Of a DNA stretch of 64,000 nt, positions 7,005 to 16,762 are shown in pieces. The number at the start of each line of letters is the position of its first letter. Position 1 is the first letter of the stretch. The translations under genes and the position numbers were made by a program. The stretch is from Natronosalvus halobius (lineage in GTDB: Archaea > Halobacteriota > Halobacteria > Halobacteriales > Natrialbaceae), in NCBI RefSeq assembly GCF_024138145.1, contig NZ_CP099997.1, forward strand, positions 1,364,001 through 1,428,000, given 5' to 3'. The notes under the pieces were generated by a model, which was not told the origin of the DNA, did not search any database, and was given only the letters and a program-made list of their open reading frames with translations.

Positions 7005-7307
7005 CTACATTCCCATGTCCGCTGCAGGCTCCGGAACCGGGAGCTCGTGTGGCGCCACCCCCAGGCGTTCAGCAACGTGATCGAGGGCCATGTCGAACCC
7101 GTAGTAGCGCTCGAGTTCGTCGCCCGTCGCGGTCGGTCGAACCTTGAGCATCGCGTATCCCTCGCGATTCTGGGCGACCGCCGCCGTGGCTCCGCTGCGG
7201 TCGAACTCGAGCACTCGTTCGTCGCCCGTTTCGCTGTAGGTCGCGGTGATGCCATTTGCCTCGGCACGCGTATCGTCGGCGTCACTAGCCCCTCGCTCGT
7301 CGGTCAT
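7005..7307 (-). CDS. Conserved haloarchaeal protein of unknown function
   Basis: 100 residues starting MTDERGASDADDTRAEANGI. It contains ITATYSETGDERVLEFDRSG, TAAVAQNREGYAMLKVRP, a GDELERYYGFDMALDHVAE helix and the ending ELPVPEPAADMGM. No Cys or membrane segment. The ATG at 7307 is preferred to a longer upstream start whose sequence is not acidic. Divergent from the cupredoxin gene; convergent with the MhqD-like gene, 16 bp away. I do not recognise a function. Confidence 0.7.
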   Translation of the reverse strand: MTDERGASDADDTRAEANGITATYSETGDERVLEFDRSGATAAVAQNREGYAMLKVRPTATGDELERYYGFDMALDHVAERLGVAPHELPVPEPAADMGM

Positions 7308-7434
7308 ACGACGCGATTCCCGGGCCGGGTACGCGAAGGTATCGGTTCCCGACTCCTGGATAGGCAACTGACTCGGCTCGTCAGTCGTATCGAAGGGTGT
7401 GATAATCACTCCTTGATGAGAGTATGGATCCCGT

Positions 7435-7441
7435 ACTTATT
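7435..7441 (+). promoter_or_regulatory. TATA-like box of the cupredoxin gene
   Basis: acttatt is centred about 29 nt before the ATG at 7467, the spacing of haloarchaeal leaderless promoters. Confidence 0.5.
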
Positions 7442-7466
7442 CGACCGGTCCTCGAGTATCCACCCG

Positions 7467-8141
7467 ATGACGCGCTCGAGACTCGTTTCGCGACGCCGGT
7501 TCGTGGCCCTCCTCGGGGCGACTTCGGGGTCGTCGCTCGTGGCCGGGTGTCTGGCGGAGGGAGAGCCGGAATCCGACGACGACCCGGAGGACGAAAGCGA
7601 CGACACAACGACCGAATCGAACGGTTCTGACGACGACTCCACGACCGGTGAGAGCGAACCGGACGACAACGAATCCGATAGCGACGGCGAGACGGAAGAG
7701 GACGACGGCCAATCCGACCACGAACCCGACGCAAACGGTGGCAACGAGGACGGCGACAGCGACGGAACGGACGAAACGGATAGCTCCGACGAGACGGCCC
7801 CGGCGGACGTCGACGAATTCGTCTTCGAGGCCCGAACGTCTCACTTCACGGGGGTCCAGCCGTCTGCCATCGCCGACGAACGGAACCCGACGCTCGTGCT
7901 CACCGAGGGAGAACGATACACGATCACCTGGCACAACGCAGACGGACACGTACACAACGTCGAAATCCGGGACGAAAACGATGACGTCGTCCAGGACTAC
8001 CGAACTGAACCAACGGGGGCCGAGTCCCAGTCGCTCACGTTCGAGGCGACTACGGATGCGGCGGCGTACGTCTGCGATTTGCACGACTCCTGGGGCCAGC
8101 GCGGGTCCATCGACATCGTTTCGGACGGTGGTGGCGGGTAG
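7467..8141 (+). CDS. Cupredoxin (halocyanin/plastocyanin-like) lipoprotein
   Basis: 224 residues. Twin-arginine signal SRRRFVALLG followed by lipobox LVAGC, so Tat export and lipid anchoring on the outer face of the membrane are expected. Residues 30-115 are an Asp/Glu/Ser-rich linker typical of haloarchaeal surface lipoproteins. The copper domain (about 120-220) has FVFEARTSHFTG, ITWHNADGHVHNVEI (first His ligand) and YVCDLHDSWGQRGSIDI (Cys and second His). At Cys+8, where halocyanins have Met, the residue is Gln, as in stellacyanins. Probable electron carrier; partner unknown. An alternative start 19 codons upstream would spoil the Tat n-region. Confidence 0.82.
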   Translation: MTRSRLVSRRRFVALLGATSGSSLVAGCLAEGEPESDDDPEDESDDTTTESNGSDDDSTTGESEPDDNESDSDGETEEDDGQSDHEPDANGGNEDGDSDGTDETDSSDETAPADVDEFVFEARTSHFTGVQPSAIADERNPTLVLTEGERYTITWHNADGHVHNVEIRDENDDVVQDYRTEPTGAESQSLTFEATTDAAAYVCDLHDSWGQRGSIDIVSDGGGG

Positions 8142-12228: not shown

Positions 12229-12251
12229 TCTGGGTTGATCACTAGAGAAAA

Positions 12252-12258
12252 CATATAG
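12252..12258 (+). promoter_or_regulatory. TATA-like box of the membrane-tethered regulator
   Basis: catatag lies about 34 nt before the ATG at 12289, in an AT-rich patch between two GC-rich genes. Confidence 0.45.
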
Positions 12259-12288
12259 TGGGTGGCGAATAACTGGCTATCTGAAGGT

Positions 12289-14130
12289 ATGGTTTCGTCG
12301 AGCACCCGTCTCGTCACCAGTCTCCTCTTCGTCTTCGTCGTGACCACGGCCAGTGTCGTGGGGATCGTCGCCGGAACCGCGGTAGCGGTGGCCACGGGAG
12401 ACGACGACATCGACGGCTCGAGCGTGGGTACGCTGCTCGAGTCGACGACTCTGCCAGTCGACGAGTTGGACGACGGTCTGGACGACGATATCGAAGAGAC
12501 GAACGAGACGGTCAATGAGACGACGGACTCGGACGGAAACGTAACTGACGGGAACGTAACTGACGGGAACGTAACCGACGAGAGTGAGAATACCACCGAC
12601 TTCGTCGAAGACGAAACCGACGAGACAGCCGACACCGACGACGCGGTCGACACCGACGACGCAATTGACACTGACGAAAATCTAACCGACGACGTCGGTG
12701 GGACGGCTGAATCCGACGAAACCGTGATCGACGATGGAGACGACGTGGTTGCTGACTCGAGTGACACGCTCGAAAACACGACCGATGGAACTACTGAGAC
12801 AGTCAACGACACGACGGCCACGACGGAGATGGTAGTCGAAACGGCAGAAAGCACTACCGAAACCGTCGAGGACACCACGAACGAAACAATCCATGCGGTC
12901 GAGGACACGACTGACGAGACGGTCAGTACCGTCGAAAATGCGACTGACGAGACTGCCAACGCGGTCGAGGACGTGACCGACGAGACTGCCGGCGCAATCG
13001 AGGAAACGGCTAACGAGACCGCCGACGTGATCGAGGAGACGGCCAACTCGATTGATGACACCACGACTACCGACGCCGTGACCGAACTCGAGACCACGAC
13101 CACGCTCACGGGCACTTCCCTGCTCGAGAAACAACTCGACGCCGACGCGAGCGTCGACGCGTCGGTTGGTGACGCGGAATCCGATGACGACGCAGACGAA
13201 TCGCTCGAGGAAACTGAGACGGCGCTCGACGGGGAAACGGACGAGAACGAAGCCACTGAAGGGAACGAGGATCGAGACGATGACGCCACGACAACCACCG
13301 ACGATAGCGGGTCCGGATTCGGCTCCGCTTCGAGTCCCGAGACGCAACATGCCGTCAACGGTGTGCTCGTTGGGTTACTCGGCGCAGTAGCCGTGTCGGG
13401 AATGGGGGCTAGCGCTGGTGCTGGTGCCGGTGCCGGTGCCGGCGCTGGCGCCGGTGCCGGGACCAGCGCAACGAACGCCGTCGCCAGCTGGACTGGCAGC
13501 CAGCCTCGTCGATTGCTGGCTGCGCTCCGGGACGCGCTCCCGGTCCCGATCGAGGCGTTGGCCCTGCTTCGATACAGCCGCTACGACGACTCGGATCCGC
13601 TCGAGAACGACCACAGGCGAACCGTCTTCGACACGATCACCGAGGAGCCGGGACTGTACCTCTCGGCACTCAGCGACCGGAGCGGCGTCGCCCTGTCGAC
13701 CGTTCGCCACCACGTCCGGGTACTCGAGGATGAGAACCTGCTCACTTCGGTCAAGGTCGGCGGCAAGCGACGCTACTTCCCGATCGAGGCGGACGGGGCA
13801 GACGGGATGGACGGAGTGGGCGGGACGGACGGGGCCGACCACGAGCGATACGCCATCTTCGCCGAACCGGCCCGCCGACGGGTGCTCGAGGAACTAGCCG
13901 CACTCGAGCACGCGTCCAACGGACGCCTCGCCGAGGCGCTCGACCTCGATCCGAGCACCGTCTCCCACCACCTCACGACGCTCGAAGAGGCGGGCTTCGT
14001 CGTCCGCGAGCGAGACGGCCGAGCCGTCCGCAATCGACTCTCCGAGGACGCCAGGTCGGCTCTGCTCGAGACCGAGGCCGACGCCGACTCGAGCGATCCG
14101 GCGTCAGCTCCGGCGCCCGCTGACGACTGA
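12289..14130 (+). CDS. Membrane-tethered regulator: glycosylation-rich extracellular stalk plus two cytoplasmic winged-helix domains
   Basis: 613 residues. Residues 7-35 form a signal/anchor helix. Residues 37-350 are a Thr/Asp/Glu-rich ectodomain with about a dozen N-x-T sequons, a three-fold NVTDG repeat near 84-98, and five in-phase 11-residue repeats of the form E-D-x-T-D-E-T-x-x-x-V at 194-248, a hendecad coiled-coil pattern. Residues 354-400 form a second membrane helix running into an Ala/Gly repeat. Residues 438-500 (RTVFDTITEEPGLYLSALS, STVRHHVRVLEDENLL) and 517-592 (ARRRVLEELAAL, STVSHHLTTLEEAGF) are two winged-helix domains. The layout suggests an outside-sensing one-component DNA-binding regulator. 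Ligand and targets unknown. Confidence 0.8.
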   Translation: MVSSSTRLVTSLLFVFVVTTASVVGIVAGTAVAVATGDDDIDGSSVGTLLESTTLPVDELDDGLDDDIEETNETVNETTDSDGNVTDGNVTDGNVTDESENTTDFVEDETDETADTDDAVDTDDAIDTDENLTDDVGGTAESDETVIDDGDDVVADSSDTLENTTDGTTETVNDTTATTEMVVETAESTTETVEDTTNETIHAVEDTTDETVSTVENATDETANAVEDVTDETAGAIEETANETADVIEETANSIDDTTTTDAVTELETTTTLTGTSLLEKQLDADASVDASVGDAESDDDADESLEETETALDGETDENEATEGNEDRDDDATTTTDDSGSGFGSASSPETQHAVNGVLVGLLGAVAVSGMGASAGAGAGAGAGAGAGAGTSATNAVASWTGSQPRRLLAALRDALPVPIEALALLRYSRYDDSDPLENDHRRTVFDTITEEPGLYLSALSDRSGVALSTVRHHVRVLEDENLLTSVKVGGKRRYFPIEADGADGMDGVGGTDGADHERYAIFAEPARRRVLEELAALEHASNGRLAEALDLDPSTVSHHLTTLEEAGFVVRERDGRAVRNRLSEDARSALLETEADADSSDPASAPAPADD

Positions 14131-14275: not shown

Positions 14276-16762
14276 GTGGAGCTGATTATCACGGAGAAGG
14301 ACAACGCGGCGAGACGCATCGCAGAGATTCTGAGCGGCGAGTCCGCCGACGCGACCCGCGAGAACGGCGTGAACGTCTACGAGTGGGGCGGCAAGCGCTG
14401 CGTCGGGCTGTCGGGTCACGTCGTCGGCGTCGACTTCCCACCGGAGTACTCGGACTGGCGGGACGTCGAACCCGTCGAACTCGTCGACGCCTCGATCGAG
14501 AAGACGCCCACGAAGGAGAACATCGTCGCGACGCTTCGCATCCTGGCCCGCCAGGCCGACCGCGTAACCATCGCGACCGACTACGACCGCGAGGGCGAAC
14601 TCATCGGCAAGGAGGCATACGAGATCGTTCACGACGTCAACGAGGAGGTGCCGATCGACCGCGTTCGATTCTCCTCGATCACCGAAAACGAAGTCCAGAG
14701 CGCCTTCGCCGAACCCGATGAAATCGACTTCGACCTCGCGGCGGCAGGCGAGGCGCGCCAGATCATCGACCTGGTCTGGGGAGCCGCGCTCACCCGGTTT
14801 CTCTCGCTGTCGTCGGGCCAGCTCGGTAACGACTTCATCTCCGTCGGTCGGGTCCAGAGCCCCACCCTCAAGCTGATCGTCGACCGCGAGCGCGAGATCG
14901 AGGCCTTCGACCCCGAGACCTACTGGGAGCTGTTCGCCGACCTGATCAAGGACGACGACCCGTTCGAGGCCCAGTATTTCTACCTCGACGAGGACGACAA
15001 CGAGGCCGAACGCGTCTGGGAGGAATCGGCCGCCGACAGCGCCTACGACACGCTCTCGAGCGCCTCCTCGGCGACAGTCACGTCGGTCAACGCACGGACG
15101 CGAACGGACACCCCGCCGGCGCCGTTTAACACGACCCAGTTCATCCGGGCGGCGAGCGCCATCGGCTTCTCCGCGAAGCGGGCCATGTCCATCGCAGAAG
15201 ACCTCTACACCGCCGGGTACATCACCTATCCGCGGACGGACAATACCGTCTACCCCGACGACCTCGAGGCCGAGGAACTGCTCGATTCGTTCGTCGGTCA
15301 CCCCGTCCTGGGCGAATCCGCCGAAGACTTGCTCGAGGGCGACGGCAACCTCGTGCCCACGGAGGGCGACGAGGAGACGACCGACCACCCACCGATCCAC
15401 CCGACCGGCGAGATTCCGGCCCGCGGCGGCGACGTCGATGAGGACGAGTGGCGGGTCTACGAACTGGTCGTCCGCCGGTACTACGCGACGGTCGCCGAGC
15501 CGGCGATCTGGGAGCACCTCAAGGTGGTCGCCGAGGCCGACGGCTGTCGGCTCAAGGCCAACGGCAAGCGCCTCGTCGAAGCGGGCTATCACGACGTCTA
15601 CCCGTACTTCAACACCTCCGAGAACTACGTCCCCGCCGTCGAGGAGGGCGAGGAACTCGCCATTGGCGACGTCGAACTCGAGGAGAAGGAGACTCAGCCG
15701 CCGCGACGATACGGCCAGTCCCGGCTCATCGAGACCATGGAGGACCTCGGCATCGGGACGAAGAGTACCCGGCACAACACCCTCGAGAAACTCTACGACC
15801 GGGGATACATCGAGAACGACCCGCCGAGGCCGACACAGCTCGCCATGGCGGTCGTCGACGCTGCGGAGAACTACGCCGACCGCGTCGTCAGCGAGGAGAT
15901 GACGGCCCAACTCGAGGCCGACATGGACGCCATCGCGACGGGCGAGGCCACGCTCGAGGACGTCACCGACGAATCCCGCGAGATGCTCGAGACCGTCTTC
16001 GAGCAGTTGCGGGCCTCCCGCGACGAGGTTGGCGATCACCTGCGCAAGTCGCTGAAGGCGGACAAACGCCTGGGTCCGTGTCCCGACTGCGGCGAGGACC
16101 TGCTCGTTCGCCGGAGTCGCTACGGCTCGTACTTCGTCGGCTGCGACGGCTACCCCGACTGCGAGTTCACCCTGCCGCTCCCCTCGACGGGCAAGCCGCT
16201 GATCCTGGAGGAGACCTGCGACGACCACGACCTCCACGAGGTGAAGATGCTCGCGGGGCGCCAGACCTTTGTCCACGGCTGTCCGCTGTGCAAGGCCGAG
16301 GAGGCCGGCGAGGGCCCCGTTCTGGGCTCGTGTCCGGAGTGTGGTGACGAACACGGCGGCGAACTCGCGATCAAGACCCTCCAGAACGGCTCGCGGCTGG
16401 TCGGCTGTACCCGCTACCCCGATTGTGAGTACTCGCTGCCGCTCCCGCGCCGGGGCGACATCGAGGTCACCGACGAGCGCTGTGACGAACACGACCTGCC
16501 CGAACTCGTCGTCCACAACGGCGACGAGCCCTGGGAACTGGGCTGTCCCATCTGTAACTACCGGGAGTTCCAGGCTCGAGAGGCCGAGAGCGGGTCGGCT
16601 CTGGAATCGATCGAGGGAATCGGCGCGAAGACCGTCGAAAAACTCACCGCGGCCGGAATCGAGTCGATCGACGACCTGCTCGAGGCCGATCCGGAGTCCA
16701 TCGCCAGCGCAGTCGAGGGCGTGAGCGAGGATCGCGTCCGGACCTGGCAGACGGCGGCCTGA
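14276..16762 (+). CDS. topA: DNA topoisomerase I (type IA)
   Basis: 828 residues. TOPRIM start MELIITEKDNAARRIAEILS, with the acidic TOPRIM pair in TDYDREGELIGKE. The catalytic tyrosine lies in GYITYPRTDNTVYP (about residue 318). The C-terminal part holds paired-Cys zinc ribbons (GPCPDCGEDLL...GCDGYPDC about 601-625; GCPLCK and SCPECGDE...GCTRYPDC about 667-715; GCPICN about 755) and a final helix-hairpin-helix (LESIEGIGAKTVEKLTAAGI, about 777-828). It relaxes negative supercoils through a 5'-phosphotyrosine intermediate. The GTG start directly precedes the conserved MELIITEKD block. Full length and apparently intact. Confidence 0.95.
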   Translation: MELIITEKDNAARRIAEILSGESADATRENGVNVYEWGGKRCVGLSGHVVGVDFPPEYSDWRDVEPVELVDASIEKTPTKENIVATLRILARQADRVTIATDYDREGELIGKEAYEIVHDVNEEVPIDRVRFSSITENEVQSAFAEPDEIDFDLAAAGEARQIIDLVWGAALTRFLSLSSGQLGNDFISVGRVQSPTLKLIVDREREIEAFDPETYWELFADLIKDDDPFEAQYFYLDEDDNEAERVWEESAADSAYDTLSSASSATVTSVNARTRTDTPPAPFNTTQFIRAASAIGFSAKRAMSIAEDLYTAGYITYPRTDNTVYPDDLEAEELLDSFVGHPVLGESAEDLLEGDGNLVPTEGDEETTDHPPIHPTGEIPARGGDVDEDEWRVYELVVRRYYATVAEPAIWEHLKVVAEADGCRLKANGKRLVEAGYHDVYPYFNTSENYVPAVEEGEELAIGDVELEEKETQPPRRYGQSRLIETMEDLGIGTKSTRHNTLEKLYDRGYIENDPPRPTQLAMAVVDAAENYADRVVSEEMTAQLEADMDAIATGEATLEDVTDESREMLETVFEQLRASRDEVGDHLRKSLKADKRLGPCPDCGEDLLVRRSRYGSYFVGCDGYPDCEFTLPLPSTGKPLILEETCDDHDLHEVKMLAGRQTFVHGCPLCKAEEAGEGPVLGSCPECGDEHGGELAIKTLQNGSRLVGCTRYPDCEYSLPLPRRGDIEVTDERCDEHDLPELVVHNGDEPWELGCPICNYREFQAREAESGSALESIEGIGAKTVEKLTAAGIESIDDLLEADPESIASAVEGVSEDRVRTWQTAA

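Follow-up and report, generated by a model that had tools for sequence, protein, structure and literature searches.

A predicted membrane-tethered tandem winged-helix regulator with an acidic, sequon-rich stalk in Natronosalvus

In the bacterial regulators ToxR, CadC and TcpP, the winged-helix (wHTH) domain is N-terminal and the periplasmic sensor is folded. In yeast, the mucin-like sensors Wsc1, Mid2 and Msb2 report the state of the envelope or the osmotic state by a long glycosylated rod, rich in Ser/Thr, that stands outside the cell on a membrane helix. Transmembrane transcription regulators are a published class (census PMC10269533), and there are two archaeal proteins of this general kind in Sulfolobus, ArnR and ArnR1, which are membrane-bound one-component regulators with two membrane helices (PMC6396743). 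For haloarchaea, few one-step routes from an envelope signal to the genes have been described, and no characterised haloarchaeal example of such a regulator was found in the literature searched, whose coverage mostly left out subscription journals. A first-pass annotation of the locus described here, made from the letters alone, could match its plan to no characterised system. In the literature searched, this holds for characterised haloarchaeal proteins, but the plan itself is not solitary, as it occurs at about 50 haloarchaeal loci, has relatives in a short-loop archaeal family and falls within the published class.

The gene lies in a stretch of 64,000 nucleotides (the window) of a Natronosalvus genome. 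Its ATG is at 12289 and its stop at 14130. The features of the gene and its surroundings are:

12249..12259, + strand: TATA-like promoter element AAACATATAGT, at the same position in six Natronosalvus species
12289..14130, + strand: whole gene, encoding the predicted membrane-tethered tandem winged-helix regulator of 613 aa (translation, Pfam, orthologues of the same plan)
12322..12393, + strand: TM1 or signal-anchor helix, residues 12-35 (hydropathy 2.4; AlphaFold helix 5-29)
12400..13338, + strand: acidic, Thr/Asn-rich stalk, predicted to be extracellular, residues 38-350, with 12 sequons (sequence statistics; mostly pLDDT <50)
12871..13035, + strand: five in-phase 11-residue repeats, residues 195-249 (lag-11 statistics; 33-bp TRF arrays; AlphaFold helix)
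13339..13410, + strand: TM2, a marginal, Gly/Ala-rich membrane helix, residues 351-374 (hydropathy; AlphaFold helix 351-370)
13411..13488, + strand: Ala-Gly repeat linker (sequence; low confidence in the AlphaFold model)
13501..13596, + strand: juxtamembrane helices and conserved motif PIEALALLRYSRYDDSDP, residues 405-436 (family conservation)
13597..13797, + strand: winged helix 1, HVO_0163_N, PF24266 (Pfam, AlphaFold, family matches)
13846..14058, + strand: winged helix 2, HTH_20/ArsR-like (Pfam, AlphaFold, fold comparison)
14116..14127, + strand: conserved C-terminal PADD, the end of a hypervariable tail (homologue comparison)
14276..16762, + strand: topA, DNA topoisomerase I, the next gene downstream (Pfam; synteny)

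The TATA-like element is 30 nt upstream of the ATG, and we infer from it a transcription start that would give a short-leader transcript. Linkage to topA was rejected as a functional clue, since it is seen only within Natronosalvus. Upstream, at window positions 7047-8141, there is an open reading frame whose start resembles a signal sequence with lipobox, followed by a low-complexity acidic linker and a C-terminal part that is cupredoxin-like (judged by eye), i.e., another acidic stalk close to the regulator gene.

The first-pass annotation had described a signal or anchor helix, about 310 acidic residues with roughly a dozen N-x-T sequons, a second membrane helix and two winged-helix domains, and all of these were found again. 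TM1 may be cleaved as a signal peptide. The stalk is about 313 residues long, and its sequons number exactly 12, all of them N-x-T. With a 19-residue Kyte-Doolittle mean of 1.8, the hydrophobicity of TM2 is marginal, as it is in the family, where the median hydropathy is 1.5, falling to 0.8 in long forms; the helix is always rich in Gly, Ala and Ser, with conserved small residues, and G362 and G365 are invariant in one of the family alignments.

Winged helix 1 matches PF24266 at residues 440-503 with 47.8 bits (cut-off 31), a domain matched by all 47 members of another family alignment, and winged helix 2 matches HTH_20/ArsR at residues 525-573. AlphaFold was run on the segment from TM2 to the C-terminus with an alignment of 47 rows, and separately on the full-length protein; in the former run, both winged helices have pLDDT >90, and TM2 and the two juxtamembrane helices have lower values. 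Among homologues, the recognition helices, STxRHH and DPSTxSHHL, hardly vary, which supports, by sequence comparison, that both are intact. The closest solved folds are SmtB and CzrA, and the fold matches the ArsR/SmtB/CzrA repressors. The Cys metal-ligand site of the ArsR/SmtB metalloregulators is absent, as the window protein lacks cysteine altogether; thus, metal sensing by Cys is excluded, Cys-free metal sites as in CzrA aside.

There are two further conserved segments, neither of them in the earlier account. One is juxtamembrane, YSRYDDSDPLE, nearly invariant among homologues. The other is the C-terminal (A/D)D, conserved in most of 54 homologues and possibly a short linear motif: the last residue is Asp in 50 of the 54, compared with 33 of 251 neighbour proteins, the homologues being related and not independent, so that a p-value on these counts is not to be read at face value.

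The five in-phase 11-residue repeats previously placed at residues 194-248 were confirmed, one residue further on, at 195-249, with a degenerate 11-mer copy on either side. Within the stalk, the periodicity peaks at a lag of 11 residues (z = 7.6 compared with shuffles), and TRF detects 33-bp tandem arrays in the DNA, matching the repeats. About half of the homologues likewise have their strongest period at lag 11, so that the periodicity is more than chance. A classical coiled coil is doubtful, because each 11-mer has only one or two aliphatic residues, although full-length AlphaFold draws a single long helix over the 11-mers (residues 175-259, pLDDT 67-78; the rest of the stalk mostly <50).

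The side of the membrane on which the stalk lies was addressed by two independent lines of evidence: an excess of sequons and an asymmetry of charge. The stalks of 43 homologues contain 303 sequons compared with 116 expected from shuffles (2.6 times more), with values above expectation in 41 of the 43. The wHTH part of the same 43 proteins contains 12 sequons compared with 17.8 expected, and the control, i.e., acidic disordered or low-complexity regions of neighbouring non-regulator proteins (mostly cytoplasmic, with some secreted clusters left out), contains 31 compared with 24.8 expected. The z-score for sequons, 20.7, is inflated by repeats, but non-repetitive stalks behave alike (e.g. all 3 Asn of L043 and all 7 of L073 lie in sequons). 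The net charge is +2.3 before TM1, -5.0 after TM1, -3.9 before TM2 and +2.3 after TM2, and the asymmetry across both helices agrees in all 43 proteins. Thus, the prediction of a stalk outside and wHTHs inside is supported, as is selection for sequons in the stalk; the glycosylated, external stalk first proposed from the window protein alone is supported by these statistics, and the acidic region is predicted outside rather than in the cytoplasm. The stalk would then be N-glycosylated, and an AglB/STT3 oligosaccharyltransferase homologue is encoded in the same genome. Against this topology, TM2 is weak in several members, and there are short relatives with a single hydrophobic segment, whose wHTHs the positive-inside rule would put outside. 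As in transmembrane one-component transcription regulators, a DNA-binding domain and a membrane helix are present in one polypeptide; the cytoplasmic position of that domain is predicted from charge asymmetry and sequon distribution in the 43 proteins, which leaves the short forms unexplained.

The family was retrieved by searching genomes with an alignment of the wHTHs, giving 61 loci, about 56 of them haloarchaeal; the full-length protein as query of genome contigs gave no matches, most search patterns having fallen in the stalk. Nearly all retrieved loci encode TM1, stalk, TM2 and tandem wHTHs, so that the search for this architecture in haloarchaeal genomes that the first-pass annotation had advised yielded the roughly 50 loci mentioned above. 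Conservation is strong in the wHTHs and in YSRYDDSDPLE, whereas the stalk varies in sequence and in length even inside Natronosalvus: there, the wHTHs are about 63-100% identical and the stalk 27-83%, with many indels. Across the family, the stalk is hardly alignable and is 90 to 1270 residues long, with 0 to 22 sequons per member; not every member has hendecads or many sequons.

A phylum-wide search revealed homologous tandem wHTHs in other families. In most of the nine relatives read outside haloarchaea, the wHTH pair follows two hydrophobic segments that are separated by only about 25-50 residues of loop, and several of the relatives share a PIE-L-L juxtamembrane motif with the window protein. 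The first-pass annotation had counted homologues lacking the stalk, if identical in function, against its proposal, and stalkless or soluble relatives do exist in haloarchaea, the window's own genome included. That genome encodes a soluble stalkless paralogue (C1:146887-147393, L053; 186 aa from its ATG, about 55% identical and branching within the same clade) as well as a short form with a single helix (C1:3115078-3115578, L004). The short relatives L103, L107, L112, L116 and L004 carry a lone signal-like hydrophobic segment at the N terminus, with no second one clearly present ahead of the double wHTH. Because of the short-loop relatives in other families and the soluble and short single-helix forms in the same genome, the stalk is most readily understood as the loop between the two membrane helices, expanded in haloarchaea, and the regulator, judged by these comparisons, as a haloarchaeal elaboration of an older archaeal family of two-helix, membrane-anchored tandem-wHTH proteins with a short loop.

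The best reading of the sequence statistics, to which we give a probability of about 0.6, is that the protein is a membrane-tethered one-component transcription regulator, with a cytoplasmic N terminus and wHTHs and an N-glycosylated external stalk, that binds DNA while anchored; the envelope sensor suggested earlier is retained in this form. The loop between the membrane helices would form a long, acidic, mostly disordered and N-glycosylated stalk in the space under the S-layer, and would report the physical or chemical state of the envelope, i.e., salt, damage to the S-layer or surface, or proteolytic clipping. The signal would pass via the marginal TM2 and the juxtamembrane PIE-L-L...YSRYDDSDPLE to the wHTH pair, which would bind DNA while still anchored in the membrane. 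We infer the sensing, the passage of the signal through TM2 and the juxtamembrane segment, the DNA binding at the membrane and the targets. Among the candidates examined (the gvpA promoter element and the regulator's own promoter), no target promoter was identified. In Natrialbaceae (loci L060-L074), GACTGTCACGAAAC is conserved in the promoter of the regulator gene, beside or upstream of the TATA box. It has no second site as strong in those loci and could be an autoregulatory site; it is not kept in the Natronosalvus regions upstream of the regulator gene.

Instead of acting at the membrane, the tandem wHTH might be set free, the stalk being clipped outside by a secreted protease and the Gly/Ala-rich TM2 then being cut by a protease of the site-2 or rhomboid type. 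A marginal, small-residue-rich membrane helix, such as TM2 is throughout the family, is a feature of intramembrane-protease substrates. For rhomboids, such features of substrates are described in PMC3494066. Several M50 peptidase homologues are encoded in the same genome, in which the soluble paralogue is a natural free form of the wHTH pair, and Tat-exported subtilase-like genes lie directly upstream and in the same direction at L050, L079, L082 and L096; this last point is weak, as subtilases are common in haloarchaea and absent beside most family members. No conserved cleavage site was found in the family, however, and signal transmission would account just as well for a juxtamembrane motif that is strictly conserved. 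Release by proteolysis, the main rival of the anchored regulator, is regarded as tentative and rather unlikely.

That the stalk is unselected low-complexity filler, expanded by slippage in a free loop and without a role in sensing, would suit its range of lengths and poor alignment, its 33-bp tandem arrays, and the existence of short-loop and stalkless relatives. Yet Asn is held in sequons well above what composition would give in 41 of 43 proteins, and nearly all homologues, divergent as they are, have an acidic stalk whose net charge is about -0.2 per residue, which makes this explanation improbable.

In its most specific form, the anchored regulator would use the glycosylated acidic stalk as a physical sensor of salinity or S-layer state, acting by its extension or glycan cover and wired to transcription in one polypeptide; this is a speculative proposal, and distinctly improbable as it stands. 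If true, the protein would be a mucin-like envelope sensor carrying its own DNA-binding domain. The combination, in a widespread family, of a disordered, glycosylated, length-variable ectodomain with a tandem wHTH would make reading of envelope or salt by stalk physics or by shedding directly testable in archaea, and the conserved juxtamembrane and C-terminal motifs are concrete mutational targets.

Neighbour clustering and Pfam show that the gene adjoins a gvp cluster at 18 loci, of which 17 belong to a single Natrialbaceae clade. Because the vac regions of several Natrialbaceae lack gvpDE (PMC4390858), a dedicated gvp regulator replacing the missing GvpD/GvpE is an attractive thought; PF07088 has only weak matches in relatives, and those GvpE-like matches that were inspected are not near the gvpA loci, coordinates having been compared by reading only. 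Such a regulator is nevertheless very unlikely, and gvp-gene regulation was rejected as not supported, since neither the linkage nor the target element is specific to regulator-bearing genomes: mutS-gvp adjacency occurs without the regulator in at least nine genomes, the window's own genome keeps it (mutS 1613716, gvpA 1618966) with the regulator elsewhere, at 1.377 Mb, the repeated gvpA promoter element GCTTGCAGNNGCAG occurs alike in genomes with and without the regulator, and one genome (G001) has the regulator but no gvpA match. The best account of the linkage is that the neighbourhood is old. The GvpE-like proteins, of about 168-196 aa, occur in most Natrialbaceae, apparently apart from the gvpA loci (e.g. 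G000:C1:2788925-2789275, L121). Upstream of gvpA (e.g. L157, L158, L131), the conserved GCTTGCAGNNGCAG repeat in some cases belongs to an inverted repeat that lies immediately before the presumed TATA box of gvpA.

Compared with known systems, the predicted anchored one-component regulator is close to the HVO_0163-type tandem-wHTH proteins (PF24266) and the short-loop relatives in the phylum, which have homologous tandem winged helices and, in those outside haloarchaea, the same TM1-loop-TM2-wHTH-wHTH order and PIE-L-L; they differ in having a loop of only about 25-50 residues or no membrane helix, and no acidic glycosylated stalk. ToxR, CadC and TcpP likewise combine a membrane anchor and a cytoplasmic wHTH in one protein, whereas the wHTHs of the window protein form a tandem at its C-terminal end, and it has two membrane helices and a disordered stalk. 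ArnR and ArnR1 are alike in outline, as archaeal tethered one-component regulators with two membrane helices, but have an N-terminal HTH, HAMP-like and sensor domains, two C-terminal membrane helices and no long external stalk (PMC6396743). The ArsR/SmtB/CzrA repressors share the fold of winged helix 2 but are soluble metal sensors, whereas the window protein is cysteine-free. Wsc1, Mid2 and Msb2 resemble it in working principle only, as these yeast sensors have no DNA-binding domain and no homology to it. We therefore read the membrane-tethered one-component regulator as the known part of this protein, and the loop that has grown into a predicted glycosylated stalk as the new part.
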